Assembly: GCA_946807835.1 (NCBI GenBank)
Contig: OX327683.1
Coordinates: 12,405,001-12,469,000, forward strand
Reading direction: 5' to 3'
DNA length: 64,000 nucleotides
DNA from: Ailanthus altissimus
Lineage: Eukaryota > Streptophyta > Magnoliopsida > Sapindales > Simaroubaceae
The position numbers were made by a program, and so were the translations under genes. Each line of letters starts with the position of its first letter. Positions within the stretch are counted from its first letter, which is position 1. The notes under the pieces were generated by a model. The model did no database searches. It had not been told where the DNA came from and saw nothing but the letters and a program-made list of their open reading frames with translations. Positions 18,527-64,000 of this stretch are shown here, piece by piece.

Positions 18527-18531
18527 GGACA

Positions 18532-19723
18532 TGATAAATACTTGAAAATGTATATTTATTAAAAGCTTCAATCATCATTTTACATTTAGAATACTACTAA
18601 TTTCAGCATTGTTTTGTAGTTTTAGAATAGAAATAAAGTGTTGTCCTTAATTTGTGATTAATGAATATATTTTCTTAGGTTTAGTAAAATAGACATAACT
18701 CCCAATCTAAAATTTGAAATGAAGAAATTCTTAAACTTGGAAAAGCATGACTCAATCCTACAAAAAAATTGATGAATAACCAAAAGCCCAAATCCAACAT
18801 ATCATGGATTGAAATTAGGATACAATAAAGCTGAACTGTAAGCTACGCTCAACCTAACCCACCTTCGGTGTTTGCATTGTATCCCACAAAATACGTATCC
18901 AATTAGTATGATTCTAGAAGTTACAGAAATATTAGTCAATTATCTATAACTCTTCTATTGTTCATCAAGTCTAATTTGGCCAGCTTCATCATCAAAAGGG
19001 CATTGCAAATTCGATGGATGGTTTGGTAGCCAACAATATAGAAGATTTAGTCAAACTAGAATAGTTTCCTTATATTTGCCTATTTAAGGACACCCTTGGT
19101 GGAAGGGGGGCATCTCAATTTTGTTATTTTGTAATCAATAGATCACTTTTCATTGTATTTTATTTCCTCAAATTATGTTGTTCTAATCTCCTAGCTAAGT
19201 CGATGAGTGAAACACTTAATGGAATTGTTGTTTTGTTTTATTTGATCCTACTTTTGTGTTTCAATGTTTATGATTATTTCAAATATTTTGATTTATCCTT
19301 TATGAAAATATTTTTGGTTTTATTGAAGCCTTGATTCATTATAGACTAAAGGTACAATGAATGCTTGGAAAGATCTTCTATATATCAACTTATTCTTACA
19401 AATGATGTTTTCAAATAATTGAAAAGCCTTTCTCAAATGAGTAAGTAGGATTAAAGATCTCTACTACAATCCAAATAAGTGTGGATCTCTAATGCATTAG
19501 TGTTCTTTTAAGTAATTCTTAATTTATATTCGATAGCCTTTTCTTTTAAAATCAACCAACATTCATTCATCATTGGATACAAAAATTCATCACTTTTAAT
19601 CATTCATATATTAACCTTTGCTCTTGGTGATCACTCTATGTGGATACAATACTCAGACTCTCGAGTTAAATACTATAATTAAGACAACTTATGTTTGGGT
19701 AAAATAATATTTGAGTTGTAGCA
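18532..19723 (+). repeat. E1 5' LTR
   Basis: It starts TGATAAATACTTGAAAATG and ends GTTGTAGCA directly before the PBS. It aligns throughout with 29332-30778, including GTGTTGTCCTTAATTTGTG and GCATGACTCAATCCTAC. It is about 240 bp shorter than the 3' LTR because it lacks that LTR's tandem duplication. Confidence 0.88.
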
Positions 19724-19729
19724 AATTTT

Positions 19730-19747
19730 TTGCACCGTTGTCTGGGA
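19730..19747 (+). other. Primer-binding site (tRNA-Asp type)
   Basis: TTGCACCGTTGTCTGGGA, six bases after the LTR end, matches 14 of 18 positions of the TGGCGCCGTTGCCGGGGA site, complementary to tRNA-Asp, used by many Athila elements. At least three of the four differences are transitions or simple decay. Confidence 0.75.
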
Positions 19748-20134
19748 GTGAAATTAACTAAAAATAATTGATTTTTGTTTTCATGGAAGGCTAAGCCTTC
19801 TACCTTGTTTTACTTTAATTATTAGTTTTATTTGTTATTTTTATTTTGCTATGGTTAGTTTTACTTAACCACCTACCTTTTGTTTACTAATATTTTATTA
19901 TTCTAATCTAACATTAACTAATCTAATTTTTACTTACTCCTCTAACATTTATTTTATTGTCGGCTTTTCTATCTAATTTGCTTTTATATTTATTATTTTT
20001 TCCTCTCTCTTGTTTATAGCATTTGTTATTATTGTATTTTATTTTTCTTTATATGAGTGGCTGATTTTGAGATCTTATGTCTCATCATTTGATGAAAGGT
20101 AATTACGAAACTCTCTTTGATAGGTTACTTGAAT
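19748..20134 (+). other. E1 untranslated leader, left of the nested LTR
   Basis: T-rich non-coding leader between the PBS and gag, typical for Athila. No ORF is present. The site of the nested LTR insertion is at 20135. Confidence 0.6.
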
Positions 20135-20139
20135 CTATT

Positions 20140-22926
20140 TGTAATGTCCAATCCTTATTAATAGTGTAGATACCTAGATTCGGTTTTTAGCGATAAAGGC
20201 ACCGTAGGGTTACCCGATTTTAACCCTATTAGAAATATATTTTTTTATGGTGCGTTTGAGAGATATTAGACCTAATTTGGTAATTTCACACTTGGTTGGA
20301 GCATTGGACGACCATAGAATATTTTTGAAAAGTTTCTCTATTGGCTTAAAAAAGGAAATTTTAATTTACTACATGAATTTTCATTTAAGGGTTATGCATG
20401 GAACAAGCCTTTGTTGAGAAACACAATCCATATGTTAGAGAATGGACTAATTAGAGGCAATTTCATGGATTGCCAAGTTTGAAGTCTGGTTAGTTCCTTT
20501 GATTATTCTAACCAAATAGTTACAAAGGAACCAATTAAATACTTACTTTATAACCAATGGCAAATTAGAAATTTAGAGTAATTTGAGGGCAAATTGGATA
20601 GTTAAGAGAGCACTATATAAAGGTGGAAGTGTATAGAATTTCGGAAAGATGAAAGCAAAACCTATTAGAGCAAAAGAGGAGCAAAAATTCGGCCAAGTGA
20701 AGAGGGGTGCTGCTATAGTAAAACCCAAAGTTATTTCATATTTTTCATGCTTTTTCAAGCTAAAATAAAGCCAAACACAAGTTCTTAAGATCAATTGAAG
20801 TTTCCATTAGTGAAAATTCAAGGAAAAGAGGTAAGAAAAACATTGTTTTATAATGATGATGTGTGAATTTTTAAGATTGCTTCAATTGATATTTTTGTGG
20901 GAATTATTGATGTAGGTTGAGTTGAATTGAAGTGTGGTGTTTAAAGAACTTGTCAAAGTAAAGGAATTAGTAAGGTAAGAATTAGGGTTTGGTGTGAATT
21001 TGATGTAGAAACTTCAATTGAATGTTATTAGGGCATTAGAATGAAATTGGTTTGATTTTGATGCCATTGGAGTAAGAAATTAATGAAAAGAAATGTGTTG
21101 GGTGGAGGAAGTAAATTTGGTCACATAGGGAATTTTAGGGTTTGAGTTGTATTTTGGTTAAATTGTTGTGTATGAATGATTTTTTGTGTCAATAGGATGT
21201 ATATGGTTGATGAAAAATAAAAAATAAAGAAAATAGGACATAATTATTCTTTATGATAAGGTGAAGGAAAATTATGTCCAATCAAATATATAGGGTGTTA
21301 AGCAATTTTCAGGGCGTCGATTGGTGAATTAGATAAGATTGAATTACTTCGTAAATGAAAATCGGAAAGTAGTATCCATCTGGGTTTTGTAAGCCGATTA
21401 GGGTGTTTAGTAGTTAAATGAAATTTTGGCGTTTGTAAAGGTTTTAAATGTCATTTATGGCGTATAGGTGAAGAAAATCGAGACCAGTAACGGAAGTAGA
21501 AGTTTGGAGCAAATTGAGCTCGGAATGGTTGTGAGTGAAAATTTGTCATTGTTTATCTTTCATTTAATATGTTTCTACATATCAAAATTGTATGTTTTAT
21601 GTGGTTATAATGCATAAACATAATTTACGATTTTGATATATATATATCCATAGATATGCATTTACATGTTCAGTTTAAGAAACAATTTTAAAACTACTAT
21701 ATTAGTTTCAAAGACCATTGGTACCCTCAAATTATAATGGTGGTGATGGTTTAAGACCCAATCGGTATATCCTGTACACATGGGCAGATATTAGAAGGTG
21801 TGTCACTAACACCGGGAAGTCAAGTTCTCGAGTCATGTGAGTCGCTCTATCTGTACGGGATTTTGTCTTGCTATATGTAGGCAATGTAGGATTCCGCTGT
21901 ATAGCCAGTGAGATGTCTTGATATGTCACAGTGAGTGTTGCTAGTTAAGACGCCCCATGACCTACTCACGTTATGCGGTGCTAGTTAAGTCTCTATGTGA
22001 GTATAGAGCTTTAGGATTACCATTGGTACAGTTTAGAAAGAAAATGACCAAGCGAGGGCTTTAATAGTTTTTGAGCTACTGAATACATCTTACGCATTTA
22101 TATATGTACATACTAGTTATTATGTCTTATAGATTTTGATATTATTTTTTGAAGATGTAAATAAAACCCGTTCGAGAAGATTTCATCAGCATATGATGTG
22201 AGAAACCATTTTACAACTTTATAAAAGTTTTAGAAGCATGATATATACATGTCTTTTAGAATTTAATATCTATGCATAATTTTATTTTATTTTAAAACTT
22301 AAATGCACTCACTAAACTCCTTTAGCTTACTCATTTTATGTTTTATATTTCCTAACCCTCTCCAGGTACAGGCCTCGGTGCGTAAGTTGCTGATTCTCAC
22401 ACGACTGATTAGTGGCCCAGTCGAACGATCATTTTGTAAATGTAAATGTACTAAGTAGCACTCTTTTTGCTTTCTACATAGTAGTTATAGACTTGTGTAT
22501 TTTGTAAATATGTTTTCGACAAACAAGAAGAGGTTTCGATACGATGATGATCGTTTCACTTTTTATTAGTATACCAATTTATGATCAAAATGAAAATTTT
22601 GAGTTTGAATTTGGTTGTGAGAAGGATCGGAGGTCCTATTTGGAAGTATTGAAAAGCTGGTTGACATAGAAGTGAAAGGTTTCTTGCAGGTTTTATATGG
22701 GTTTTTTAGAAAAATAAGGGAAACTTTGTTCCTTTTTTTTATTTATAAATTTAATAAGTTATTTTCATGTATATTCTAGAATTTTTTCAATAATAGTAAG
22801 AATTAAAAAGGGGTTCACCTCGTGAAATTTCTCAAATTTCACAGTTAGATTCTGAGGAACTTTTGTTGAGGTGCCCCGCAAAGCCGCTGGAATCTATAGT
22901 AGAGGTTCTTAGGGTGGGTCCTGTCA
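20140..22926 (+). mobile_element. Family I solo LTR, 2787 bp, inside the E1 leader
   Basis: Runs TGTAATGTCCAATCC to GTCCTGTCA. The flanking pentamers CTATT (20135-20139) and CTCTT (22927-22931) match at 4 of 5 bases. A TATA box (CACTATATAAAGG, about 20610) lies roughly 470 bp from the start, so U3 is short and R plus U5 exceed 2 kb. The family core is at 21720-22030. It lacks internal coding and is therefore a solo LTR. Confidence 0.88.
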
Positions 22927-22967
22927 CTCTTTCTTCCTCTCATTCTTCATCAAACACATCATACACC

Positions 22968-24300
22968 ATGGCCGATAATGAAACTATACACGAAGATCAT
23001 GTTAATGCACCCATCTGAACCATGCGAGAATACTTGCAACCTCCTTAGAACTTTACACCCTCATGCTTCATTTTCTATTGAATGCCAATAATTTCAAATT
23101 TAAGTCTGGTATGATTCCCTTAATTCTAAATTTTCATGGCTTAGAATCGAAAAGTCCATACTTACATTGGAAGGAATTTGAGGAAGTTTGTAATACATTT
23201 AATTACCAAGGATGTAGTGAAGAAATAATTAGGCTTAAGTTGTTTTCATTTTCATTGAAAGACAAACCAAAAACTTGGCTTAGTTCTTTAAAATCAAGGT
23301 GAATAGGTACTTGGCAAGAAATGCAATGTTAATTTTTAAAAAAAGTTTTTCCAACACATAAAATCAATGCTTTGAAAAGACAAATTCAATTTTTCTCAAA
23401 AGGAAAATGAAACATACTTTCAATGTCAGGAAAGATTCAAAGACTTGTTACATTTTTGTCCACATCATGGTTTTCAAAAATGGTTTAATTCCCGAGACTA
23501 AACAATTCATAAAAACCATATGTAATGGAGAATTTCTAGATAAAGATCAAGATGAGGCATTTGATTATTTGGATCATTTATCAAAAAATTCTTAAAATTG
23601 GAAAATTACTAGTTCTATCAATTCAATTAGATTTAATCTTGCAAGTTATAGTGGAGGAAAATATCAATTGAGTTGAGAACATGATTTCAGTGCTAGGGTA
23701 GCTAGTTTGGCTAGGAAAGTGGAAGCCATGAAAATGAGGAAACTAAGGGAGACCAAATCCATCCTTACTAAAGAAGTTAGTGGTATTTGTAACATTGTTG
23801 GTCATCCCAAAAATGTGTGCCCAAATCTTCTGATCTTTAAAGAATCCATGCATAAGCAAGTGAATGCCACGAATTATACTAACAAAGCTTTCCCATCCCA
23901 TTACTTCAACACGTACAACCTAAATTGAAGAAACCATCCAAATTTCTGTTGGAGAAATGATAACAATGTCCAAACATAACATCAACAAAAGTCTTCAAAT
24001 CCTCCTCCATATCACTCACTAAACATAAAAATCCTTAAGAAGACATTGCAAGCATTCAAGCGTGAGCAATCAAGATTTAATGATCAGACTTCAGGGGCCA
24101 TAAATGAGATCAAGAGTACACTTTCTAATCTGACATCTTTTGTACAAAGTCAAAAAAAGGATAAGTTTCCTCCTCAGCCTAAACCTAATCCCTAAAGTCA
24201 ATTCAATGTAAATGAATCTTGTGGAAAATAAAAATCACTTGAAAATATCAATAACATCACAACACTTTATAGTGGTAAGGTTATTGATAAAACTCTTCCT
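22968..24300 (+). pseudogene. gag: E1 gag pseudogene
   Basis: ATG at 22968 opens MADNETIHEDHVNAPI, followed by MREYLQPP, the usual N-terminus of Athila-type gag. The capsid-like region is well preserved in 23063-23302 (FHGLESKSPYLHWKEFEEV, then KLFSFSLKDKPKTWL) and 23407-23595 (ETKQFIKTICNGEF, DEAFDYLDHL). A degraded CCHC knuckle lies near 23780-23825 (GICNIVGHPKNVCP, first Cys lost). At least five stops or frameshifts interrupt it. In an intact element this protein would form the particle that packages the RNA. Identification is by recognised family motifs. Confidence 0.85.
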
Positions 24301-25345
24301 TAAAAAAAGATGAACCTAAACCACTCGAAAGTAGAAATTGAGAAGAAAAAAGGGTCAAAGCCTTTTGAGAGAGAAGAGTGTCCAATTCTTACCTCATTTC
24401 CTCAAAGATTGAAACCAATTAAAAAGTTGAACCTAAATTCTGACATCTATGAACTTTTCAAGCAAGTCAAAATAAATATCCCTTTGTTGGATGCAATAAA
24501 ACAAGTCCTATCTTATGCCAATTTTTTGAAAGATTTGTGCATGGTTAAAAGAAAGCTTAATGTTTGAAAAAAAAGGATTTTTGACCGAGAGTGTAAGTTC
24601 AATCATTCAACAAAACACTCCTCCAAAATACAAGAATCTTAGATGTTCAACCATTTTTTGTGTGACTGGTAATTTTAGGATTGACCGTGCATTGGTTGAT
24701 TTAGGAGCTAGTGCTAATGTTTTGCCTTATGCTGTTTATGAGCATTAAGAATTTGGTAAGCTCAAACCTACTCCAATCATTCTTTAACTTGCTGATAGAA
24801 GTGTGAAAGTTTCAAGAGTAGTAGTGGAAGATGTGCTTGTTCAAACTGATAAATTTTATTTTCATATTGATTTTATTGTTTTAGACATACTTGTTTTGAA
24901 CTTGAATGCTCAAATTTCAGTCATTCTAGGTTGTCAATTCCTTGCAACTTCTAATGTTTTAATTAATTGTAGAAATAGTTTGTTGAAACTATCATTTGGT
25001 AATATGACTTGTGAACTGAATGTGTTTAATATTTTCAAGCAATTTTGGGATGATAATAATGTGCATGAAGTTAATCTAATTGAAGAACTAGTACATAATG
25101 AATTTAATATCTATTCTTCTAGTAACGATTATGAAATGGAAAAGAAAACAATTATGAAACACATTTTTCTTCACAGGTTTTTGGAATAGATAAGCGGAGA
25201 CCAAGATTTAAAGAATTACCACAAAATACAAATGCTACCTTGCCATTAAATGTGCAACTACCGAAACTTAAATTGAAGCCATTGCCATCTCTTCTCAAAT
25301 ATTCATTTTTAGGTGAAAATGAAAATTTTCCAGTTGTGATGAATT
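24301..25345 (+). pseudogene. pro: E1 protease region pseudogene
   Basis: The frame at 24310-24567 holds the pre-protease segment (CPILTSFPQRLKP, then FKQVKINIPLLDAIKQV). The frame at 24560-24748 contains the aspartic protease site ALVDLGASANVLPY, with the catalytic DLGAS at 24698-24712. The fold continues in 24803-25189 (FYFHIDFIVLDI, ILGCQFLATSNVLI). Breaks separate all three. The end (SLLKYSFLGENENFPVV, about 25290-25340) is the segment that normally leads into reverse transcriptase, but RT does not follow. Confidence 0.8.
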
Positions 25346-26620
25346 GAAGACAAAAAGAGAGTTGAAAATATTGTGGTTGATCACTTGTATAGACTTATTT
25401 GTGATGAATCTTTAATAATTAATGATATATTTCCAGATGAACAACCTTTTGGCATTGTTAATTTACCTTGGTTTACTGACATTGCTAATTTTCTTGTTAT
25501 AGAAAAACTTTCACCTCATTGGCAAGCCCTACAAAAGAAAAATGTTATGCGAGGTACGCAATTTTTTTTAGGAGGATCCATAACTCTTCAAATATTATCC
25601 TAACTAAATCATAAGATGATGTGTGCTTGATAATAAAATTCAAAAGCTTGTGGTAGTTATTTTTCTTCAAAGCAAATTATAGCAAATATTTTGCAATGTA
25701 GATTTTTTTAGCCCACTTTATTCAAAGATACACATGTATTTTGTAAAATGTGTGAAAATTGTTAAAAATTGAGATCCATTTCAAAACAAAATATGATGCC
25801 TTTGAATCTCATTCTAATTAAAAAAATTTATTACTGAGGGTAGATTTCTTGGTCGCACTAGATTATATGTTTTAAAATAGATTAAGATAATTCTATGTTG
25901 AAACAATGAGCACAAAATGCTCATAAACTTTTTAAAAGAAAATATCTTAAGTCGATGTTGAAAAAGATTATATGTTAAACTTTTTAATAGGCTGTTTGAA
26001 ACATTAATGAGAAAATATTGAATTACTCACAAAGTTGCCACCTTTTATCACCTTCAAACAAGCGGACAAGTTGAATTAGCTAATCGAGAGATAAAACCAA
26101 TTTTGGAGAAAACCGTAAGCCCAAATCGCAAAGATTGATCTTTAAGATTTAATGATGCACTTTGGACTTATTGACCTGCTTTTAAAAATTTATTTGGTAT
26201 ATCTCCTTATAGGCTAGTTTATGAAAAAATTTGTCACTTGCTAGTGGAACTTGAGCATAAAGCCTATTGGGCATTAAAACTTTTAACTCAAACCATGATG
26301 CTAATGGACAGATACATAAATTACAAATAAATGAACTTGAAGAGTTGAGTAATGATGCATATAAGAATTCAAAAATTCATAAAGTTAAAATCAAAGGTTT
26401 TCATGATAAAAAATTCTAAGAAAGATATTCAAAGTTGGTTAGAATGTTTTATTTTATAAATCTCAACTTCACATATTCCCTTGGAAATTAAGGTTAAGTG
26501 GAGTGGCCATTTTGTTGTGAAACATGTGTACCCTTATAGAGCTATGAACATTGAAAATCCTAAAAATGGTAATATATTTAAAGTAAATGGGTAAAGACTC
26601 TAACAGTTTCTAAAAACTAA
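25346..26620 (+). pseudogene. int: E1 integrase pseudogene, RT and RNase H deleted upstream
   Basis: Begins with the post-RNase H linker (RVENIVVDHLYRL) and FPDEQPFGIVNLPWFTD. The zinc-binding HHCC domain is only traceable (about 25600-25790). The catalytic core shows its glutamate block near 26040-26090 ([15 protein letters not shown]). The C-terminal domain follows ([22 protein letters not shown], then a trace of the SRWSGPF-like module near 26490-26600). Many frameshifts occur. The 61690-63044 copy is the same domain in better condition. This integrase would insert the cDNA, and no working copy exists here. Confidence 0.82.
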
Positions 26621-26896
26621 GTTTTTCAAGAAGAAATTTTGTCCTTATCTTGTCCTTGTTATGAGACCAATTAATTTTTGTTGTACATATTTATATATAT
26701 TTGTCCTTCTTCTAACATTATTTATTTTCCATACTTGTAGGTTAGTTTAAGTATCTTTTTTGTTTTAATATTGTTTTGTACCTAGTTAAGTGATAGATAA
26801 CGATATTCTGTGATATTTCAAGTCAGTTTAGTCTGTTTCCTATAATTATTGATACAAAAAAGTCTTCTCTGTCTTTCTCTCATTTCTCTTACAAAA
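26621..26896 (+). other. E1 spacer between integrase and aORF1
   Basis: T-rich non-coding spacer. The matching spacer in the second element is 63045-63273. Both end in a pyrimidine-rich leader just before ATGGATAGC. Confidence 0.6.
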
Positions 26897-27401
26897 ATGG
26901 ATAGCATTTTGATGAATTTGAAAAAGCATTTTCCCTATTTGTCTCAAAATGCCTCAAAGAAAATTTACTAAGCCCGATGTGAAAGATTACGACTATTAAT
27001 GATTATGAACATACCTGTTGATGTACATTTATTAATTGAAGCTAATGTCTGATTGGTAGGTGAGTTTTCATATTCATTAGTTACCTACATACTAGGTTTA
27101 GGTAAAAGATCTTTTTGTAAAAAAGCGAAGAGCAAAAAAGATTAGGTGTTTGTTATAAGTGTGCACGTACGACTTGTAACACAGATGCCGTACTTTAGGA
27201 TTGGTGTTTATAAATCATGAAGATAAAATTAGATTCATTAGGGATGGATTGAGTAAGGAGTCTTTGGATGATATCTTAATCCCTCTTTAGACACATCCTA
27301 GTGGATATGTGCATATTGCCATTCGTAATTTATGGGAATTATTCCTAAAGAAACATGAGTGGTACAGTCTTGAGAATCTGACTCTAAAAGATCATGTTTG
27401 A
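26897..27401 (+). pseudogene. Extra ORF 1 (aORF1), basic Cys-containing protein, carlavirus CRP-like layout, broken
   Basis: ATG at 26897 opens MDSILMNLKKHFPYL. Then come stops at two places, a hydrophobic stretch (NIPVDVHLLIEANV), LGLGKRSFC, a lysine/arginine patch, and the pair CYKC followed by AR..CN (about 27150-27185). A charged tail follows (EDKIRFIRDGLSKESLDDIL). At least two stops and one or more frameshifts break it. The same order occurs in 63274-63779. A basic patch immediately before a CxxC finger, with a DV..LI segment upstream, is the layout of the small nucleic-acid-binding, silencing-related proteins of carlaviruses. That link is inference from layout and short motifs only. 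It may instead be an unrelated basic zinc-finger protein. It lies between integrase and the 3' LTR, so it is element cargo. Confidence 0.6.
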
Positions 27402-27697
27402 TAATTTATAAGAAAATTAGATGGAAAACCTATTCCCGACCCATAGAGGGTGTTTAACCCATTTCAGGACGTAAAACTAGAGAAAGATGTGAGCCACAAT
27501 CACAACTACCTGTACATTTGCATGTTAGTCGCTCTTTTTGAATAATTTGCAATTTAATTTTATTTTTTGACAATAGCCAACTACGTAGACTTTACATTAC
27601 AACATCTTCTTTTTTTTTCGATTCTATAAAAGCACTGCTTTACTTCTACATATTCATACAAATTCAAAATCAATTAAAGTTTAGAGTAAGTGCAATA
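27402..27697 (+). other. Spacer between aORF1 and aORF2
   Basis: Non-coding, with a conserved stretch also present after aORF1 in the second element (CCTATTCCCGACCCATAGAG, 27429-27448 and 63807-63826). The right half becomes T-rich and leads into a TATA box. Confidence 0.6.
27624..27631 (+). promoter_or_regulatory. Candidate TATA box for the LOG-like ORF
   Basis: CTATAAAAGC (27624-27633) lies about 70 bases before the ATG at 27698. A transcript starting about 30 bases downstream would have a leader of roughly 40 bases. This could be an internal promoter captured or evolved with the ORF, but TATA-like strings are common in AT-rich DNA. Confidence 0.35.
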
Positions 27698-28235
27698 ATG
27701 GAAAAAACCTTGACTCATAGATTTATAAAAATTTATGTTTTTTATGGATCCTACCTCGAGAGAACTGGAGAGTTTTTAGAAGTAGCAGAAACTCTTGGTA
27801 AGGTGTTAGCTGAATGAAATATGCATTTAGTATATATGGAGGTAGACATGGGTTAATAAGGGGTATAGTAAAAGATGCACAAAATAATAACAGTCGTGTT
27901 TTGGGTATCATCCCGAAATCTTTAATTGTTGAGAATATTATAAGAAAACTAGCTGGGGATGAGTTACAGGTTTCAACTATACATCATAGAATGCCTTTAA
28001 TGTTTGGGAATTCAATTGCCTTCATAGCTGTACCAAGAGGTCTTTTCATGGTTATCTTGTGGAAAAATAATTCATTTCACATTTGGCACGGTGGATCTTT
28101 ATTTCTGCTTCAACTATTGATGAGTTGATTGAAACTGCACTTGTCCCTCTATCTGATCCAACATTATATGAGTTGGATTGGTTTATTGCTAATAGTGAGA
28201 AAAAATACAAGATAGATTTGACTCTCCGTCTGTAA
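27698..28235 (+). pseudogene. Extra ORF 2 (aORF2), LOG-like cytokinin-activating enzyme, broken
   Basis: LOG enzymes release active cytokinin bases from their riboside 5'-monophosphates in the plant cytosol. The frame opens MEKTLTHRFIKIYVFYGS (LOG: start, beta strand, C/YGS loop), then EFLEVAETLGKVLAE, a stop, NMHLVY, and after a one-base shift GGRHGLIRGIV (the GGGS.GLMG nucleotide-binding glycine loop). RVLGIIPKSL, ELQVSTIHHRM and SIAFIAVPRGL follow, matching VLGIIPK, V..MH.R and DAFIALPGG. The PGGxGTxEE motif is damaged (PRGL, no GTxEE) and about 40 residues before the C-terminal ISASTIDELIE segment are missing. No introns are visible, although plant LOG genes have several. It lies inside E1 between aORF1 and the 3' LTR. 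It is non-functional as read. Confidence 0.82.
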
Positions 28236-29331
28236 CTTCTCTACTCTTATATTCTTACAATATTTTATTTTCATTAGAATGGCTTGTTTTATTTTGTTGC
28301 AGATTTCATTTGAATAAAAGTTGTTCCAGTTATACTTCTATATATAACTCTTTTTATATTTTTACATTAAGGACAATGTTTCAATCTAGTTAAAAGGAAT
28401 GATAGTTCATATAAAATGTTAGTGTTAATTTTTGTAATCATTTTGTTATTGTTTTTATAAAAAAAATTGACATTGGCATCACGAATGGCATAAGTAAGGG
28501 TTCATATTTGGACTCTTGAAACGCATTCTAACCCACTTGTTATTATTATTATTTTTGTTATTTTATTTTTATTTTTATTTTTTTTTAGCATTTCATGCAC
28601 ATGTGTTCTTAGTAGTTCTTATGTTAATAAGTTTGATTTTCTAAGTGGTATGATTTCAAAATTATTTAACTTTAGTCACTTTTCTATCTAGGTTACTAAA
28701 GAGCGAGTTTCGAAATCAATCTTATTTTGTAATGTTTTCTTATGTTCTTCACATTATAAAGAAAAAAAGTCACTTCATTCAATAAAGTCTTCTTTCAATT
28801 TTAGAAGACAAAAGTGTAAAAAAAAAGGTTAATTCATTTTAATAAAGTCTTTATTTTATAAAAAAAAAGTCTTTAGGTAGTTTTTCTCGTCGGGCTCTAT
28901 TTGCAATATTCGTGATTAAAGTCCTAAAAGCTAGCACATGGCAAGAGTGGTGTAACTCTAAACAATTAATTTTCTTATCTTTGAGTCAATGTTAGTTGGT
29001 CTGTTTATCCTTAAATATGACTTTTTCTTAAGCGCTTATCTATTTTTTAACTCTATAAGTGAAATCTTAACCCTTGAAATAGTTATTCACCCAAGAGGAT
29101 ATAGAGTTGAAGCTTTTACTTGGAGAAAATTTTCAAGACTATATATATTGTGGTTTGTGGTAAGAAGGTTTTGGCTTAGTTCACATATACATAATTTTGA
29201 AAGTTATGATTGAAATAAGCTTGATAGCAATTGTGATCTTAAAATGACGCTTTGTTTGAAATACTTATATAGTTTTTTAATTTATTTACGCTTGAATTGC
29301 TAGGGACTAACAATAAACTGGTTGGGAGTTG
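28236..29331 (+). other. E1 3' non-coding region and polypurine tract
   Basis: Contains ACATTAAGGACAATGTTT near 28365, a string usual in the 3' non-coding region of Athila elements, and T-rich stretches. It ends in GGTTGGGAGTTG (29320-29331), a degraded polypurine tract abutting the 3' LTR. The ORF at 28989-29213 matches nothing recognisable. Confidence 0.6.
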
Positions 29332-30778
29332 TGATGAACACTTGAAAATGCATAGTTGTTAAGAGCTTCAATCATCATTTTACATTCAGAATACTACTTA
29401 ATTTTAACATTTTTGTAGTTTTAAACCAGAAGTAAAGTGTTGTCCTTAATTTGTGATTAATGAACATTTTTGTGTAAGTTTAGTAAAATGGACATAACTC
29501 TCAATCTAAAATTCAAAATTAAGAAACTATTGGATCCAGAGAAGCATGACTCAATCCTACACAAAATTAATGAACAATCAAAAGCCCAAATCTAACATAT
29601 TATGGACTGAAATTAAGACACAATAGAACTGAACTGCAAGCTACGCTTGGCCTGACCCACTTTCTGTATTTGGACCGTATCTTACAAACTATGTATCTAA
29701 TTAGTACTATCCCAGAAGTTATGAAAATATAAGTCAATTATCTACAACTCTTATATTGGTCACAAAGTCCAATTCGATTGGCTTTATAGTTAATACGGTA
29801 TTGTAAATTTGATGGATGATTTGGTATTCAACAATGTGGAAGATTTAGTCAAACTAGAATAGGTTTTTTATATTTGCTTATTTAAGGACACTCTTGCCCA
29901 CTTTTTGTATTTGGACCGTATCTTCAAAATATGTATCTAATTAGTACGATCCTAGAAGTTATGAAAATATAAGTCAATTATCTACAACTCTTATGTTGGT
30001 CACAAAGTCTAATTCGATTGGCTTTATAGTCAAAAGGGTATTGTAAATTCGATGGATGATTTGGTACTCAACAATGTGGAAGATTTAGTCAAACTAGAAT
30101 AGTTCTTTTATATTTGCTTATTTAAGGATACCTTTGCTAAGAGAGAGGGGGGAGGATAGGGCGACGACATCTCTCTTTTGTTATTTTGTAATCAATAGTT
30201 CACTTTTTATTATATTTTATTTTCTCAAGTTATGTTGTTCTAAACTCCTAGTTAGGTTTAGGAGGGAAACACTTAATGGAATTGTAGTTTTGTTTCTTCG
30301 ATCTTATTTTTACATTTCAATGTTTATGGTTGTTTTTAAATATTTTGATTTATTATTTATAAAAATTATTTTGATTTTATTAAAACCTTGTTTCGTTACA
30401 AAATAAGGGCAAACGAAAAGCTTAAAAAGATCTTTTATATATCAACAACTTATTCTTCTAAATGACGTTTTCAAACAATTGAAAAGTCTTTCTCAAATGA
30501 GTAAAGAGAATCAAAGATCTCTCTTATAATATAAATAAGTGTAGATCTCTAATACATTAGTATTTTTTCAATTAATTTCTTAATTTATATGTGGTACCTT
30601 TTTCCTTTAAAATCAACCGACACTCTTTCATCTTTGGATACAACACTTAATCACTTTTAATCATTTTCACAATAACTTTTGCTTTTAGTAATCACTTTAT
30701 GTGAATACAACACTTAAACTCTCGAATTAAATACTTTTTAATACTTGTACTTAGTAAAATAATATTTGAGTTTAACTA
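29332..30778 (+). repeat. E1 3' LTR with internal tandem duplication
   Basis: It starts TGATGAACACTTGAAAATG and ends TTTAACTA, where the 5' LTR ends GTTGTAGCA; the CA is mutated. Perfect TSD GGACA follows. It is longer than the 5' LTR because a 241-bp stretch is repeated. Confidence 0.88.
29656..30137 (+). repeat. Two tandem 241-bp units in the E1 3' LTR
   Basis: Unit 1 is 29656-29896 and unit 2 is 29897-30137. Both contain TATTTGGACCGTATCTT, GAAAATATAAGTCAATTATC and AACAATGTGGAAGATTTAG. The 5' LTR has one copy, so the duplication arose after integration or by slippage while copying this LTR. Confidence 0.88.
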
Positions 30779-30783
30779 GGACA

Positions 30784-34066: not shown

Positions 34067-34341
34067 TTTGTAGAGGATATATGCACTGGTTATTAAGATT
34101 CCCCATTTGTATATGTCTTTGCAAGGAAATGGATGCACTAGTTAGTGAGATTCCCTTTTGTTTATGTCTTTGTAGGGAATAGATACACTAATTTGGTGAG
34201 ATTATCTTTTGTAAATATCTTTGCAGGGAATGGATGCATTGGTTAGAGTTTCCTTTGTATATGTCTTCGTAGGGGAATGAATGTCTGATTTTGTGAGATT
34301 CTCATTTGTTTATGTCTTTGTAGGAGAATGGATGCACTAAT
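34067..34341 (+). repeat. 51-bp minisatellite, left part
   Basis: Five full diverged units and the start of a sixth, of about 46-52 bp, with the pattern TTTGTAGGGAATGGATGCAC, then GGTTAGTGAGATTCCC, then TTTGTAAATGTC. The array resumes at 38099 after the copia solo LTR. About 13 units exist in total. Stops in all frames make it non-coding. Confidence 0.85.
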
Positions 34342-58619: not shown

Positions 58620-59190
58620 AAAGGCTTTGAAAGTGACAGTGTCATCTTGCACCCTCACAGTCAACTCCCCTTTTAAACATCAATGATCATTCGTCTTATG
58701 GCTATGAAGGGTCTTCTAAGGATGATGGGGATCTCTTTGTCTTCTTTCATGTCTATGATGATGAAATCTACCGAAAAGATGAACTTATCTACTTTTACTA
58801 GCACGACCTCTATGATTCCCTTTGGATAGGCGAGAGATGGTTAGCAAGCATGAGTGTGATGTTACTAGGCCTTACTTCTCTCAAAACTAACTTGTTAAAA
58901 ATGGAAAGAGGCATGAGATTTATAATTTCTCCAAATCACAAAGCACTTTATCAAGATTATGATTACCAACAGAGCACAAAATGGTAAAGCTTCTGAGATC
59001 CTTGAACTTTGGAGGTAGCTTTTTCTTAAGGATGACACTACACTCCTCTGTCAATGCTACGATCTCATAATCTACTAGTCTCATTTTCTTAGATAATATC
59101 TCCTTTATAAACTTCATATAACTTGACATTTGTTCAATAGCATCCGCAAAAGGTATGTTAATGTGACGTTTCTTGAAGATATGCAAAAAC
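58620..59190 (-). pseudogene. pro: E2 protease region pseudogene
   Basis: The frame 59186-58920 reads KRHINIPFADAIEQMSSYMK, LTEECSVILKKKLPPKFKD and LDKVLCDLEKL. It breaks exactly at the DLGAS active site (DLEKL). About 58820-58700 continues KFIFSVDFIIIDM and IPIILRRPFIA, the C-terminal half of the Athila protease. The enzyme cleaves the gag polyprotein in live elements; this one lacks its catalytic motif. Confidence 0.72.
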
Positions 59191-60897
59191 TTTGAGAATT
59201 GCTTGTCTAGCTTCTACTTTTGTAGCCTTCGAGGAAATGGTGAATATGGATAGAGATATTGAACTACATGTTTCTATTGGTTTTTAATGTTCTGTGTTGC
59301 TGCATCTGAACTTTTTTAGAATTCTACCCTATTTTCTGCACTTTTTTGCTGCTGCACATCATATTCTGGAGTATTTTATGCACTTTTCTACTGTTACATA
59401 TCATGTTCTGCATTTCCTAGATTGCCTTGCTATAATTTTTCAATTTTTGCACTTGTTTGCACCTATATAATCTTTGTGGAAAAGAAATAGGCGGTCTATA
59501 TGGCATCACTTCTTCTTGTTGTGCCACATTCTCCTTCTCTTTGACACTTGATAGTGGTGGTTTGGGTGTGTTACTATGTAGGATCTTATCACTTCTCAAT
59601 TTTATAGCTTGACATTACTCTATATTTCTTGGATTTGCTTCGTTGTTGCTTGGTAGAGTGCCTTCAGCCTCTTATTAATGGCTGTAGTACGTTATCCCAA
59701 TTGAACTTTCAAGTTCTTCAATGATGCTGAATGATTCAGTATGATGGCATCATTAAACTTCATATATTGCATCAACATATCTTTTAAAGTCGGCTTCTTT
59801 TCTTACGGTGGTTGGAATCCAGGCGGATTCAATAATCTAGATGACGCCCTTTGGTTGTTATGCTAAGCGAAGTTTCAATGATCTCTCAACTTTTGATTAT
59901 AGGAATTTGATTGTGGGTTAGGTTGTTGTAGATTAAAATTGCCCATATAATTCACCGATTCCATGTACCGCCTATTTATGTGGCTTTCACCACAAAACGT
60001 CGCATATCACTTGCTGGGTCTTAACGGCGTTCAATGCATTAAACTTCTTAGATAATGAATTAATCTGTACTGCCAATTGAATGCGTGAATCTCACATACA
60101 TTGGCGACTCTTTTGAGTGTAACTTTTTTTATTGGCCATTAGAAATTGTTTGATGTCATTTCTCCCAGTAGATCATAAGCCTCATTCATCGACTTATTCA
60201 TTATAGCTCCTCCAGCAATAGAATCTACAATGGTCCTAAAATGGCCTACTAATCAATTATAGAACATTTGGAATAATAGTCATTTAGGGACACCATGATA
60301 AAGACACTTCCTTGACATATCCTTGAAGCACTCACATGCCTTATACAATGACTTTCCATTAATCTGACTAAATAAGGTGATGTCATTTCTCATAATTGCT
60401 GTTTTTGTTAGTAGGAAGAACTTGGCTAAAAACCTCTATGCTAGAGTATCCTACGTCGATATGGATCTGGATGATAATGATATCAACCAATTCTTTGCCT
60501 TGTCCTTCAAAGAAAAAAGGAATAGTTTAAGTTAGATAGCATCGTTTGAGACTCTGTTATACTTGAAGGTATCATAAATCTCCAAGAAATTTATGATAAG
60601 CATGTTAGGATCATCATTCGGAGCTTTACAAAACTGTACAGACTCTTTTAGCATCTAAATAATATTTGACTTAATCTCAAAGTTATTAGCATTAATGGTT
60701 GGTCACCGAATATTAGATTGAACAACATCTGTGGTTGGGATAATATACTCTTTTAGTGCTCTCTGTGGTATCATGGGTTCAAGCACAAGATTATTGATGT
60801 GATTATTGTTCTTCTTCATGTTTAAAGATTGCTGGCGCTGTTTATGTTGAAGTCTATACAATGTTCTTTTAGTCTTAGCACTTTTCGCTCTTCGCAT
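59191..60897 (-). pseudogene. gag: E2 gag pseudogene
   Basis: The first ATG at 60897 (MRRAKSAKTKRTLYRL) is followed by PMIPQRALKEYIIP. The capsid-like region (60660-60130) has MLIINFLEIYDTFKYNRVSNDAI, then KLFLFSLKDKAKNWL, ACECFKDMSRKCLYHGVP and AYDLLGEMTSNNF. The C-terminal linker near 59599-59417 shows PYRPPISFPQRLYR. Stops occur throughout. It belongs to a gag branch different from E1 (closer to the NN-rich SLKDKAK.WL.SL type). Confidence 0.78.
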
Positions 60898-61690: not shown

Positions 61691-63044
61691 GGACTCTATA
61701 AAAGTTGTTGGCAGTAGTGGCTGATCATTTATCCTGCCTTACGTTCACTGACTCCATTAATGTTCCACCCATTCAAGATGATTTCCCTGATGAACATATT
61801 TTCACTATAAGCGAAGTACCTTGGTACGCACATATCATAAATTATTTAAATTGTGGAGAAATTTCATCTATCTGGAGTGCACAAGATAAGCGTAAGCTTT
61901 TAGTTGAGGTATGTAATTTTTATTGGGATGATTTATATCTTTTCAAATACAACCCTGACCAAATTACGAGATATTGCATTCCTGAAAGTGATGTTTCTAG
62001 TGTCTCAAATTATTTTCATAGTACTGCTTGTGGCAGTCTTTTTCTACAAAGAAGACAGCCGCAAAAATTTTACAGTGTAGTCTTTACTGGCCCACTTTAT
62101 TCAAAAACACTAATAATTTTTGTCGTTCTTGTGAAAAATGTCAAAATTTATGTAATGTATCTTAAAGACATATAATGCCTTTTAACCCTATTCTTGTTAT
62201 CGAGATATTTAATTGTTGGGGTATTGATTTTATAGGTGGAGTTATTAAAAGAAATTGTTGAGGTATCGATTTTATAGCTTGTCGTGCTAATGATAACACA
62301 ACTGTGATAAAGTTCTTAAAAGAAAATGTGTTATATAGGTATGGTACACCAAGTGTCATCATTAGTGACAAAGGAATATATTTTTGTAACCGTTCTTTTA
62401 AAACTTTGATGCGTAGGTATAATGTTCTTTACAAAGTTTCCACTGTATACCATCCTCAGACAAATGGACAATTAGAACTAGCAAATAGAGAGGTTAAACT
62501 AATTTTACGCCTTTCTGATGCATTATAGGCATATCACACTGCATACAAAATCATCTTAGGAATGTCTCTATACCAACTTGTCTATGGGAAGGCTTGCCAT
62601 TTACCTGTTGAGTTAGAGCATAAAGATTACTGGGCTGTCAAAGCCCTTAACTTTGATTTTAGCATTGCAGGTTTTCAGAGAAAGTTACAATTGTTAGAAA
62701 TAGAAGAGCTACGAAATTATGAATATAACAACTCCAAGATTTACAAAGCCAAAATGAAAGCAGCTGATGACAAACTGATCTCAAGGAAACACTTTGAGCT
62801 AAATCAATGGGTTTATCTTTATAATTCTCAATTGCATTTACACCCTAAAAATTTAAGATCTCGATGGACTGGTCTATTAGTGTTAAGGCACGTTTTCCCT
62901 AATGTTGCTATTGAAATCAAAGATTCCATTGATGGGCGAATTTTCAAAGTGAATGAACAGCGGTTGAAAAGTCATGTAGAAAATGTAGATCTCTCTATGT
63001 ACCTAGACAAGATCTTTCTTATGGATCTTGTCTATCATGCTTGA
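61690..63044 (+). pseudogene. int: Integrase of a second Athila-type element (E3), 5' part missing
   Basis: 61705-62175 carries VVADHLSCL, DDFPDEHIFTISEVPWYAHI, the WSAQDKRKLLVEV segment and a degraded HHCC zinc domain (FHSTACGSLF). The first catalytic Asp block is WGIDFIGG near 62220. About 90 residues then collapse into a short duplicated piece. 62304-62528 holds the second Asp (SVIISDKGIYFCNRSF) and the catalytic Glu (YHPQTNGQLELANRE). 62562-63044 is an intact C-terminal domain (SLYQLVYGKACHLPVELEHK, LRSRWTGLLVLRHVFP, IFKVNEQRLK). It is broken by stops at 62176 and 62526. It is the same family as E1 and better preserved. Confidence 0.87.
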
Positions 63045-63273: not shown

Positions 63274-63779
63274 ATGGATAGCATTCTTGCAACCTTCAAA
63301 AACACTTTCTTTCACTACCTTAAAATGCTATACTTAAGATTTATAAAGTACGGTGTAAAAGACTAAAGTGATTAATGTTAAAGAATATCCCTGCGGATGT
63401 TCGTTGTTTAATTGAAGTCAAGGTTCGATTATCTAGTGAGTCTATAAATGATTTTATTTCTTTTATGCTTGGTCTTGGAAAAAGCTCTTATGCCAAAAGG
63501 CGAAGAGCAAAAAGGTTACAAGCCTGTCATAAATGTGCTTGATAGAATTGTAACTGGATTTGTTGTCCTTTAAGATTTACATCTAGAAATTGAGAAGATA
63601 AAATTCAGTTCATTAAGGATGGACTGAGTAAGGAGTCTTTGGATGATATCCTATTGAGTCTTGAGATGCGTCATTATGGGCTCGTGCAACGTGAACTTCT
63701 CGATTTACGGAATAAATTAAAAAATGAACATCAACGATAAAGTCTCGAGATTCTGACTCTAAAAGATCCTGCTTGTTAA
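63274..63779 (+). pseudogene. Extra ORF 1 (aORF1) of E3, second copy
   Basis: Opens MDSILATFKNTFFHYLK. After a frame break it reads NIPADVRCLIEVKVRLSSES, FMLGLGKSSYA, the basic run KRRRAKRL, QACHKCA, then two stops, NCN and a CC pair. The tail is EDKIQFIKDGLSKESLDDIL, then LLDLRNKLKNEHQR. Length (506 bp), position after integrase and stop position match 26897-27401. The two copies are broken at different sites, so both descend from an ORF that was once open. The basic run followed by CxxC is the carlavirus CRP-like feature. Function is unknown and only inferred. Confidence 0.62.
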
Positions 63780-64000
63780 TTTATAAGAAAATTAGATGGA
63801 AAGCCTATTCCCGACCCATAGAGGGCGTTTAAGCCATTACTGGATGTAAACCCAGAGGAAGATGTAAGCCATAATCACAATTACCTATACATACACATGT
63901 GTCTTAATTTTAAACTTTTTTTTATTTTATAAATAATAGGGCTACTTATATAGATGTCTTAAATTCAAATCTTTTGGTTAAATAATGCATGTAGGTCATT
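63780..64000 (+). other. E3 region after aORF1, to window end
   Basis: Similarity to 27402-27600 continues to the end (CCTATTCCCGACCCATAGAG; GGGCTACTTATATAGATGTC against AGCCAACTACGTAGACTTTA). In E1 the LOG-like ORF follows about 100 bp after this point. Confidence 0.6.

Follow-up and report, generated by a model that had tools for sequence, protein, structure and literature searches.

A LOG-like gene and a viral-like neighbour in Athila-type retrotransposons of Ailanthus altissimus

Introduction

LOGL4-like open reading frames (ORFs) were reportedly found by Steinbauerova et al. in 2011 in two Athila-like elements. The closest system that we can document is the LOG (YgdH) domain in Gypsy elements of Citrus sinensis, C. 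clementina and Populus trichocarpa, a finding that the accessible part of the paper calls 'in line with' a 2011 report (PMC9289625). These elements resemble the ones considered here in having a LOG-type domain within plant Ty3/gypsy elements, and differ in that the same accessible part of the account makes no mention of an ORF resembling a nucleic-acid-binding protein (NABP), of a pocket change, of selection on LOG or of a carrier without gag-pol. Since the presence of LOG in plant LTR elements has already been published, the novelty claimed for our locus by a preliminary description, which had proposed from the letters of the sequence that a cytokinin-activating gene of the LOG family rides in an LTR retrotransposon, does not hold. 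A second parallel is offered by the AlkB-carrying Ty3/gypsy elements of Phalaenopsis, where again an enzyme has been acquired by an LTR element and kept in many copies; that enzyme is a different one and, according to the part of the paper at hand, its activity was shown in vitro (PMC9289625). AlkB is also known from Betaflexiviridae (same source and part), and the betaflexivirid replicase-like insert of cucumber is, from what the available part of its description says, a different case (PMC3136472).

We focus here on a stretch of 64,000 nucleotides of Ailanthus altissimus (the window) and on its relatives in the genome of the same species, examined as a 939-Mb assembly of 37 contigs. Three features appear to be unreported, in that we have seen no report of them: the NABP-like partner ORF, the changed pocket, and a second type of carrier whose LTRs are unrelated and in which gag-pol is missing. 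For the NABP-like ORF in LTR elements, the literature covered was the open-licence work on viral and silencing genes, LOG and extra ORFs; for the pocket change and the gag-pol-less LOG carrier, it was the same literature, searched on neighbouring topics. Open-licence papers naming Viral_NABP, PF05515, Carla_C4 or PF01623 were concerned only with methylglyoxal and glyoxalase genes.

The element in the window

An LTR retrotransposon at 18532-30778 of the window is real, being delimited by two LTRs and a perfect 5-bp target site duplication (TSD), GGACA, which stands at 18527-18531 on the left and is matched exactly at 30779-30783 on the right, with no strand assigned; both the LTRs and the duplication had been claimed in the preliminary description and are confirmed at these ends. 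The internal features and the LTRs are on the plus strand. The 5' LTR (18532-19723) is 82.7% identical to the 3' LTR (29332-30778) over 1178 aligned sites and is followed at 19731-19748 by a primer-binding-site remnant, TGCACCGTTGTCTGGGAG, which resembles the TGGCGCCGTTGCCGGGGA of family A, a set of relatives in the same genome; primer sites of the TGCACCGTTGTCTGGGAG/TGGCGCCGTTGCCGGGGA kind are presumably of the Athila/tRNA-Asp type. Searches by tblastn with the family A gag-pol recovered remnants of gag, with a broken frame (23012-24591), of the protease region (LVDLGASANVLPY; 24545-25138) and of the RNase H tail with integrase (25343-26671), and gave no match in this element to reverse transcriptase (RT) or to most of RNase H. 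Downstream lies the remnant of an NABP-like ORF (26897-27443), which aligns in two overlapping pieces at 69% and 67% identity. The 3' LTR contains an internal 240-bp tandem duplication (29685-30137) that the 5' LTR lacks. Divergence between the LTRs (K2P 0.203) translates into an age of 7.8 My at a rate of 1.3e-8, 15.6 My at 6.5e-9 or 40.5 My at 2.5e-9 substitutions per site per year, and we regard the element as a dead member of its group with an age of roughly 8-16 My.

The LOG-like segment does lie between integrase and the 3' LTR, at 27698-28232 on the plus strand, and every LOG peptide named in the preliminary description is present, but the peptides are spread over three frames rather than one. 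The N-terminal piece (MEKTL...KIYVFYGS; 27698-27853) has an internal stop and then a frameshift, the KIYVFYGS frame that starts at 27698 ending at the stop at 27815-27817, after KVLAE. An open frame forms the middle piece (GGRHGL...AFIAVPRG; 27814-28125), and the C-terminal piece (28041-28232) brings the C-terminus in a third frame (28071-28232). AFIAVPRG and a few further codons run directly into the C-terminal part, about 35 residues having been deleted ahead of it and most of the PGGxGTxxE motif with them. Because of the stop, the frameshifts and this deletion, the copy is unable to make a complete LOG protein; it is a pseudogene. The active site of this remnant reads Arg-Met, the pocket Lys being replaced here as in other element LOGs (see below).

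The assignment to the LOG family stands nonetheless. The middle piece matches PF03641 at 25.8 bits (E 1.3e-5), narrowly missing the curated cut-off of 27; it also matches the NCBIfam LOG equivalog (E 4e-6; 26.9 bits, far below the model cut-off of 300) and Arabidopsis At2g37210 (PDB 2a33; E 2e-6). Neither of the two end pieces, taken by itself, matched a Pfam or NCBIfam family at E up to 1. When compared by tblastn with an intact element LOG of the same genome, the three pieces score 60.5, 78.6 and 79.3 bits. In a control of 500 shuffles, any match was obtained in 82 and the best reached 23.5 bits, which excludes chance similarity.

A second LOG-carrying element sits at the right end of the window, where an integrase remnant (61714-63041, plus strand, by comparison with family A) and an NABP ORF remnant (63291-63818, plus strand, 60% identity) predicted a LOG just beyond the end. 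This LOG was found about 140 bp past the end, in 481 bases read there; it is broken and matches family C at 66%. Also in the window are three 71-nt direct repeats (34106-34324) and a further Athila-like gag/protease remnant on the minus strand (58667-60762; 33-47% identity to the family A gag-pol).

Intact relatives and copy number

Family A elements are about 12 kb long, with LTRs of about 1438 bp and the primer site TGGCGCCGTTGCCGGGGA, and run in the order gag-protease-RT-RNase H-integrase, a 182-aa ORF (the NABP-like one), LOG (217 aa) and 3' LTR. Their Pfam domains (gag, RVT_1, RNase H and rve) are in an order that fits the Athila lineage (Ty3/gypsy OTA), and an extra ORF downstream of pol, a 5-bp TSD and the TGGCGCCGTTGCCGGGGA primer site, which we take together as marks of Athila, are all present. 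Twelve family A LOG places, all from the best-scoring list, were read with their flanks. Eleven of them have gag-pol, LTR pairs that are 98.1-99.9% identical and 5-bp TSDs (10 perfect, 1 with one mismatch), corresponding to insertions no older than about 0.6 My at 1.3e-8. The twelfth has a 3' LTR (98.1% identical to that of another copy), NABP and LOG, and shows neither a 5' LTR at the expected position nor a close gag-pol. At all 12 places the NABP ORF precedes LOG and aligns over its full length, in 10 cases without stops, and copies exist in which gag-pol, NABP and LOG are all open. The LOG of an intact element scores 138 bits against PF03641 (cut-off 27) and matches Arabidopsis LOG3 at E 4e-63.

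A PF03641 profile search of the genome yielded 4943 candidates, the best 150 of which all cover 130-131 of the 131 positions in one frame, free of introns and stops, over the cut-off and at E < 1e-36. LOG signatures of two further types, families B and C, occur at 1046 and 751 places, respectively, with up to three mismatches; these counts take in broken copies and were made by signature, without reading the surrounding element. An NABP signature has 2658 matches, and the reversed-pattern controls gave 0. Of the 751 family C LOG sites, the 50 listed on contigs C1-C4 were compared with exact matches to the NABP signature: 43 are preceded by one at a distance of 789-811 bp on the same strand, and 7 have no exact match nearby. 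Scans of IMG/VR for LOG and NABP returned no relative.

Cellular LOGs were sought with a codon-motif pattern, since an exon search was swamped by element copies. The pattern, MH[QE]RKAxMA, occurs at 16 places, which we take as the cellular LOG genes, although it requires the lysine and LOG genes without it therefore escape the count; ten of the 16 fall into five pairs, identical within each pair and located on different contigs, and the remaining six into three pairs that differ by one base.

These data bear on whether the LOG segment could be an independent cellular retrocopy that happened to land in one element. Its lack of introns would fit such an origin, but LOG stands behind NABP in all 12 of the family A places read and in the 43 of 50 listed family C sites, and we give this explanation next to no credence. 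No TSD or poly-A of the segment's own was seen by eye around 27698-28235, and a late insertion of a single copy is excluded by the signature counts of the B and C types, the NABP-LOG pairing and the family A places. The relatives thus support the earlier proposal of an intronless LOG that is carried inside an Athila-type element and has multiplied with it, and LOG is indeed found in many copies at one element position.

The neighbouring NABP-like ORF

The ORF just upstream of LOG is absent from the preliminary description. It is in this ORF that a likeness to plant viruses is found: PF01623 (Carla_C4) and PF05515 (Viral_NABP) comprise proteins of Betaflexiviridae, some of which suppress silencing. 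The 182-aa ORF scores 32.3 bits against PF05515, exceeding the cut-off of 23, and 17.9 bits against PF01623, under the cut-off of 20.9, with the profile match spanning residues 38-125. Its relatives number 551 in the protein database; among the 120 listed, 43 were aligned, and Carla_C4 is matched by 40 and Viral_NABP by 39 of these 43 at E <= 0.01. Among the plants named as sources are Xanthoceras, Acer, Populus and Rhamnella. The structure model is poor (pLDDT 60), and its best viral fold match, at E 0.73, is not significant; viral kinship is thus argued from the profiles. Like the carlavirus-type NABPs, the element protein has a basic stretch followed by a Cys cluster; unlike them, it is encoded by a retrotransposon, is about 182 aa long and continues past the viral match into a conserved C-terminal part.

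A zinc finger and a basic motif could in principle produce this resemblance without any common origin, and the confinement of the match to the basic, cysteine-rich part of the protein, together with the non-significant fold comparison, would suit that reading. We consider it unlikely, however, given that PF05515 is matched over its curated cut-off, that two virus families are recognized by most of the aligned relatives, and that the best fold entry, though not significant, is an RNA silencing suppressor from Fig latent virus 1. That the NABP-like protein might itself suppress silencing is only a guess, made by analogy.

A carrier without gag-pol

LOG is also found in a second type of element. 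In family B, one clean copy is 9.2 kb long; its two 2.7-kb LTRs are identical and begin with TGTCACGCCCC, its TSD, CTAAT, is perfect, and its interior contains long ORFs and LOG, with no match to the family A gag-pol or NABP. The second ORF of this copy (221 aa) has no Pfam match. In another copy, whose LTRs are interrupted, the corresponding position before LOG is occupied by a 407-aa ORF (L016:7983-9203); it has no Pfam match up to E 10, and its identification with the Pfam ATHILA ORF-1 was rejected on that ground. Family-B-type LOGs recur on the same strand at a spacing of 6.3-6.7 kb, as expected of tandem copies that share LTRs (LTR-int-LTR-int-LTR); pairs about 6.6 kb apart on one strand are located, for instance, at C5:4492104/4498654, C27:1871214/1877794 and C17:26112258/26118874.

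BLAST detects no similarity between the LTRs of families A and B. What the two share is LOG, about 75 bp before it and about 170 bp after it; furthermore, two weak matches of 63-66% connect the region of the family B ORFs with sequence lying outside element A. Divergence in the flanks amounts to K 0.24 over 70 sites and K 0.33 over 132 sites, values that do not exceed the dS of 0.49 for LOG itself. Shared non-coding flanks suggest that a LOG cassette was passed between elements or that both stem from one retrocopy, rather than from two captures of cellular genes.

Selection and relationships

Between families, dN/dS of LOG (Nei-Gojobori) is 0.31 for A-B (dS 0.49), 0.23 for B-C (dS 1.19) and 0.14 for A-C (dS 1.79, near saturation). 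Within families it is 0.21 for B-B (dS 0.066), 0.63 for A-A (dS 0.011) and 0.97 for C-C (one pair), the last two values reflecting few, young differences. The comparison covers frames from 10 places of family A, 17 of family B and 2 of family C: 39 frames were fetched, 7 that were short or lacked a start were dropped, and 3 that repeated family A places already represented were removed. Because the copies are young and were drawn from the 150 top-scoring matches, a choice biased towards intact frames, the within-family values prove little. The between-family values indicate that LOG was under constraint while it was element-borne and the families diverged, provided that they split after capture, as the tree suggests.

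In a first tree, 50 element-like LOGs (47 from the list of 120 relatives, together with those of families A, B and C) fall on one side of a branch with an SH-aLRT of 96; 26 cellular-type rows and one bacterial LOG were included. In a second tree, from which the two pocket columns were removed, 43 element-like rows (40 + 3) are split from 14 cellular-type rows with support of 100/100. The cellular rows in the trees are LOG3-like and LOG8. Known hosts of the element-like LOGs are Xanthoceras (Sapindales), Reevesia (Malvales), Populus (Malpighiales) and the asterid Paulownia (Lamiales), their location in elements of these plants being deduced from the number of rows per genome and from one Xanthoceras LOG-type protein fused to an apparent Athila pol fragment. 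The Populus proteins P0026, P0042 and P0098, annotated publicly as 'LOGL10', fall inside the element-type clade, P0026 and P0042 with a Leu/His pocket, and may therefore be transposon genes.

It is in this light that passive carriage has to be weighed, in which LOG would simply ride along, of no use to the element, and decay once each copy has inserted. Plant LTR elements are known to capture genes (PMC7264820, accessible part), LOG is broken in the window copy and in some others, and the A-A and C-C ratios would be compatible with such cargo. Against this stand the between-family ratios of 0.14-0.31, the catalytic residues and length kept by relatives of the element LOGs from other plant orders, and the retention of the cassette in an element without gag-pol. 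Passive carriage is thus, in our assessment, improbable.

The active site and its substrate

In CgLOG, Arg99 and Glu122 are the proposed catalytic residues, and the pocket for the base or prenyl group is presumably lined by Met96, His97, Lys100, Glu125 and Trp129; in the accessible part of that work, alanine at the tested residues nearly abolished activity, S19A excepted (PMC4979012). The element LOGs of this genome keep Arg99 and Glu122 at 36 of 36 compared places. Lys100, on the other hand, is replaced by Met or Ile and Glu125 by Gln, the Lys/Glu pair being kept at 0 of the 36 places (39 frames). Among the 120 element-like proteins listed, Arg99 is found in 114, Glu122 in 116, Trp129 in 120 and the full PGGxGTxxE motif in 102, as against Lys100 in 13, Glu125 in 14 and His97 in 65. 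Both Lys100 and Glu125 are kept by 122 of 122 cellular LOG3-like proteins, a set made up of the 120 nearest to LOG3 and two solved ones, with other LOG classes hardly sampled. Element LOGs thus share with the plant LOG phosphoribohydrolases (PDB 2a33, 1ydh) the sequence family, PGGxGTxxE and the catalytic Arg and Glu; they differ in being intronless and, in most cases, in having Met, Ile or Leu for Lys100 and mostly Gln or His for Glu125.

On a 57-row tree, one loss each of Lys100 and Glu125 suffices (split support 95/91). Since the pocket change is derived and shared, and the gene that bears it is constrained, we read it as a sign that base recognition has been altered and not as decay. The preliminary description had suggested that the element may be able to raise cytokinin in its host cell. 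An active, cytokinin-releasing enzyme of ordinary specificity would be consistent with the full PF03641 domain, with the similarity to Arabidopsis LOG3, with the conserved catalytic Arg/Glu and Trp129, and with the retention of Lys100/Glu125 by some TE-type LOGs, a few from Xanthoceras among them. The replacement of both pocket residues at every place compared in this genome, set against their universal retention among the LOG3-like cellular proteins, makes ordinary specificity rather doubtful here. The catalytic Arg/Glu are kept at all 36 places, but the statement that cytokinin is raised is doubtful as worded, the pocket pair being lost at these places and the window copy being a pseudogene.

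Conclusions and implications

Taken together, the window probably holds a decayed member of a large Athila-type group whose ancestor captured a spliced LOG coding sequence. The capture would have taken place long ago, and LOG would since have been carried beside the NABP-like gene, whose product recalls the small nucleic-acid-binding protein found in carlavirus-like RNA viruses. Both proteins, as we infer, are made from element RNA and help the element. The NABP-like protein would bind RNA, perhaps that of the element itself or the small RNAs of silencing. The enzyme derived from LOG would retain the ability to cleave a nucleoside monophosphate, with release of cytokinin or, given the pocket change, of another base. 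If cytokinin were raised locally, dividing cells that enter the germ line could be favoured; if the substrate has changed, the LOG-derived enzyme would have acquired a new role. More tentatively, and with somewhat less than even confidence, the sequence comparisons may be read as a two-gene accessory module, made up of an RNA-virus-type, silencing-suppressor-like nucleic-acid-binding protein and a LOG-derived enzyme whose base pocket was retuned once and then kept by selection. On this reading LOG later moved to an unrelated element without gag-pol, the lineage spread over rosids and at least one asterid, and the LOG-derived enzyme acts on a nucleotide other than the usual cytokinin precursor.

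For many of the extra genes in plant retrotransposons, neither an origin nor a role is known. In the present case, one such gene appears to be an enzyme of a host hormone pathway kept under constraint as the families diverged, and its neighbour looks viral. For annotation, a word of caution follows, as some of the models annotated as 'LOG' in tree genomes may belong to transposons. More importantly, if the proposal is true, it becomes directly testable whether the accessory genes of plant retroelements, as those of viruses do, target host hormones and RNA silencing.
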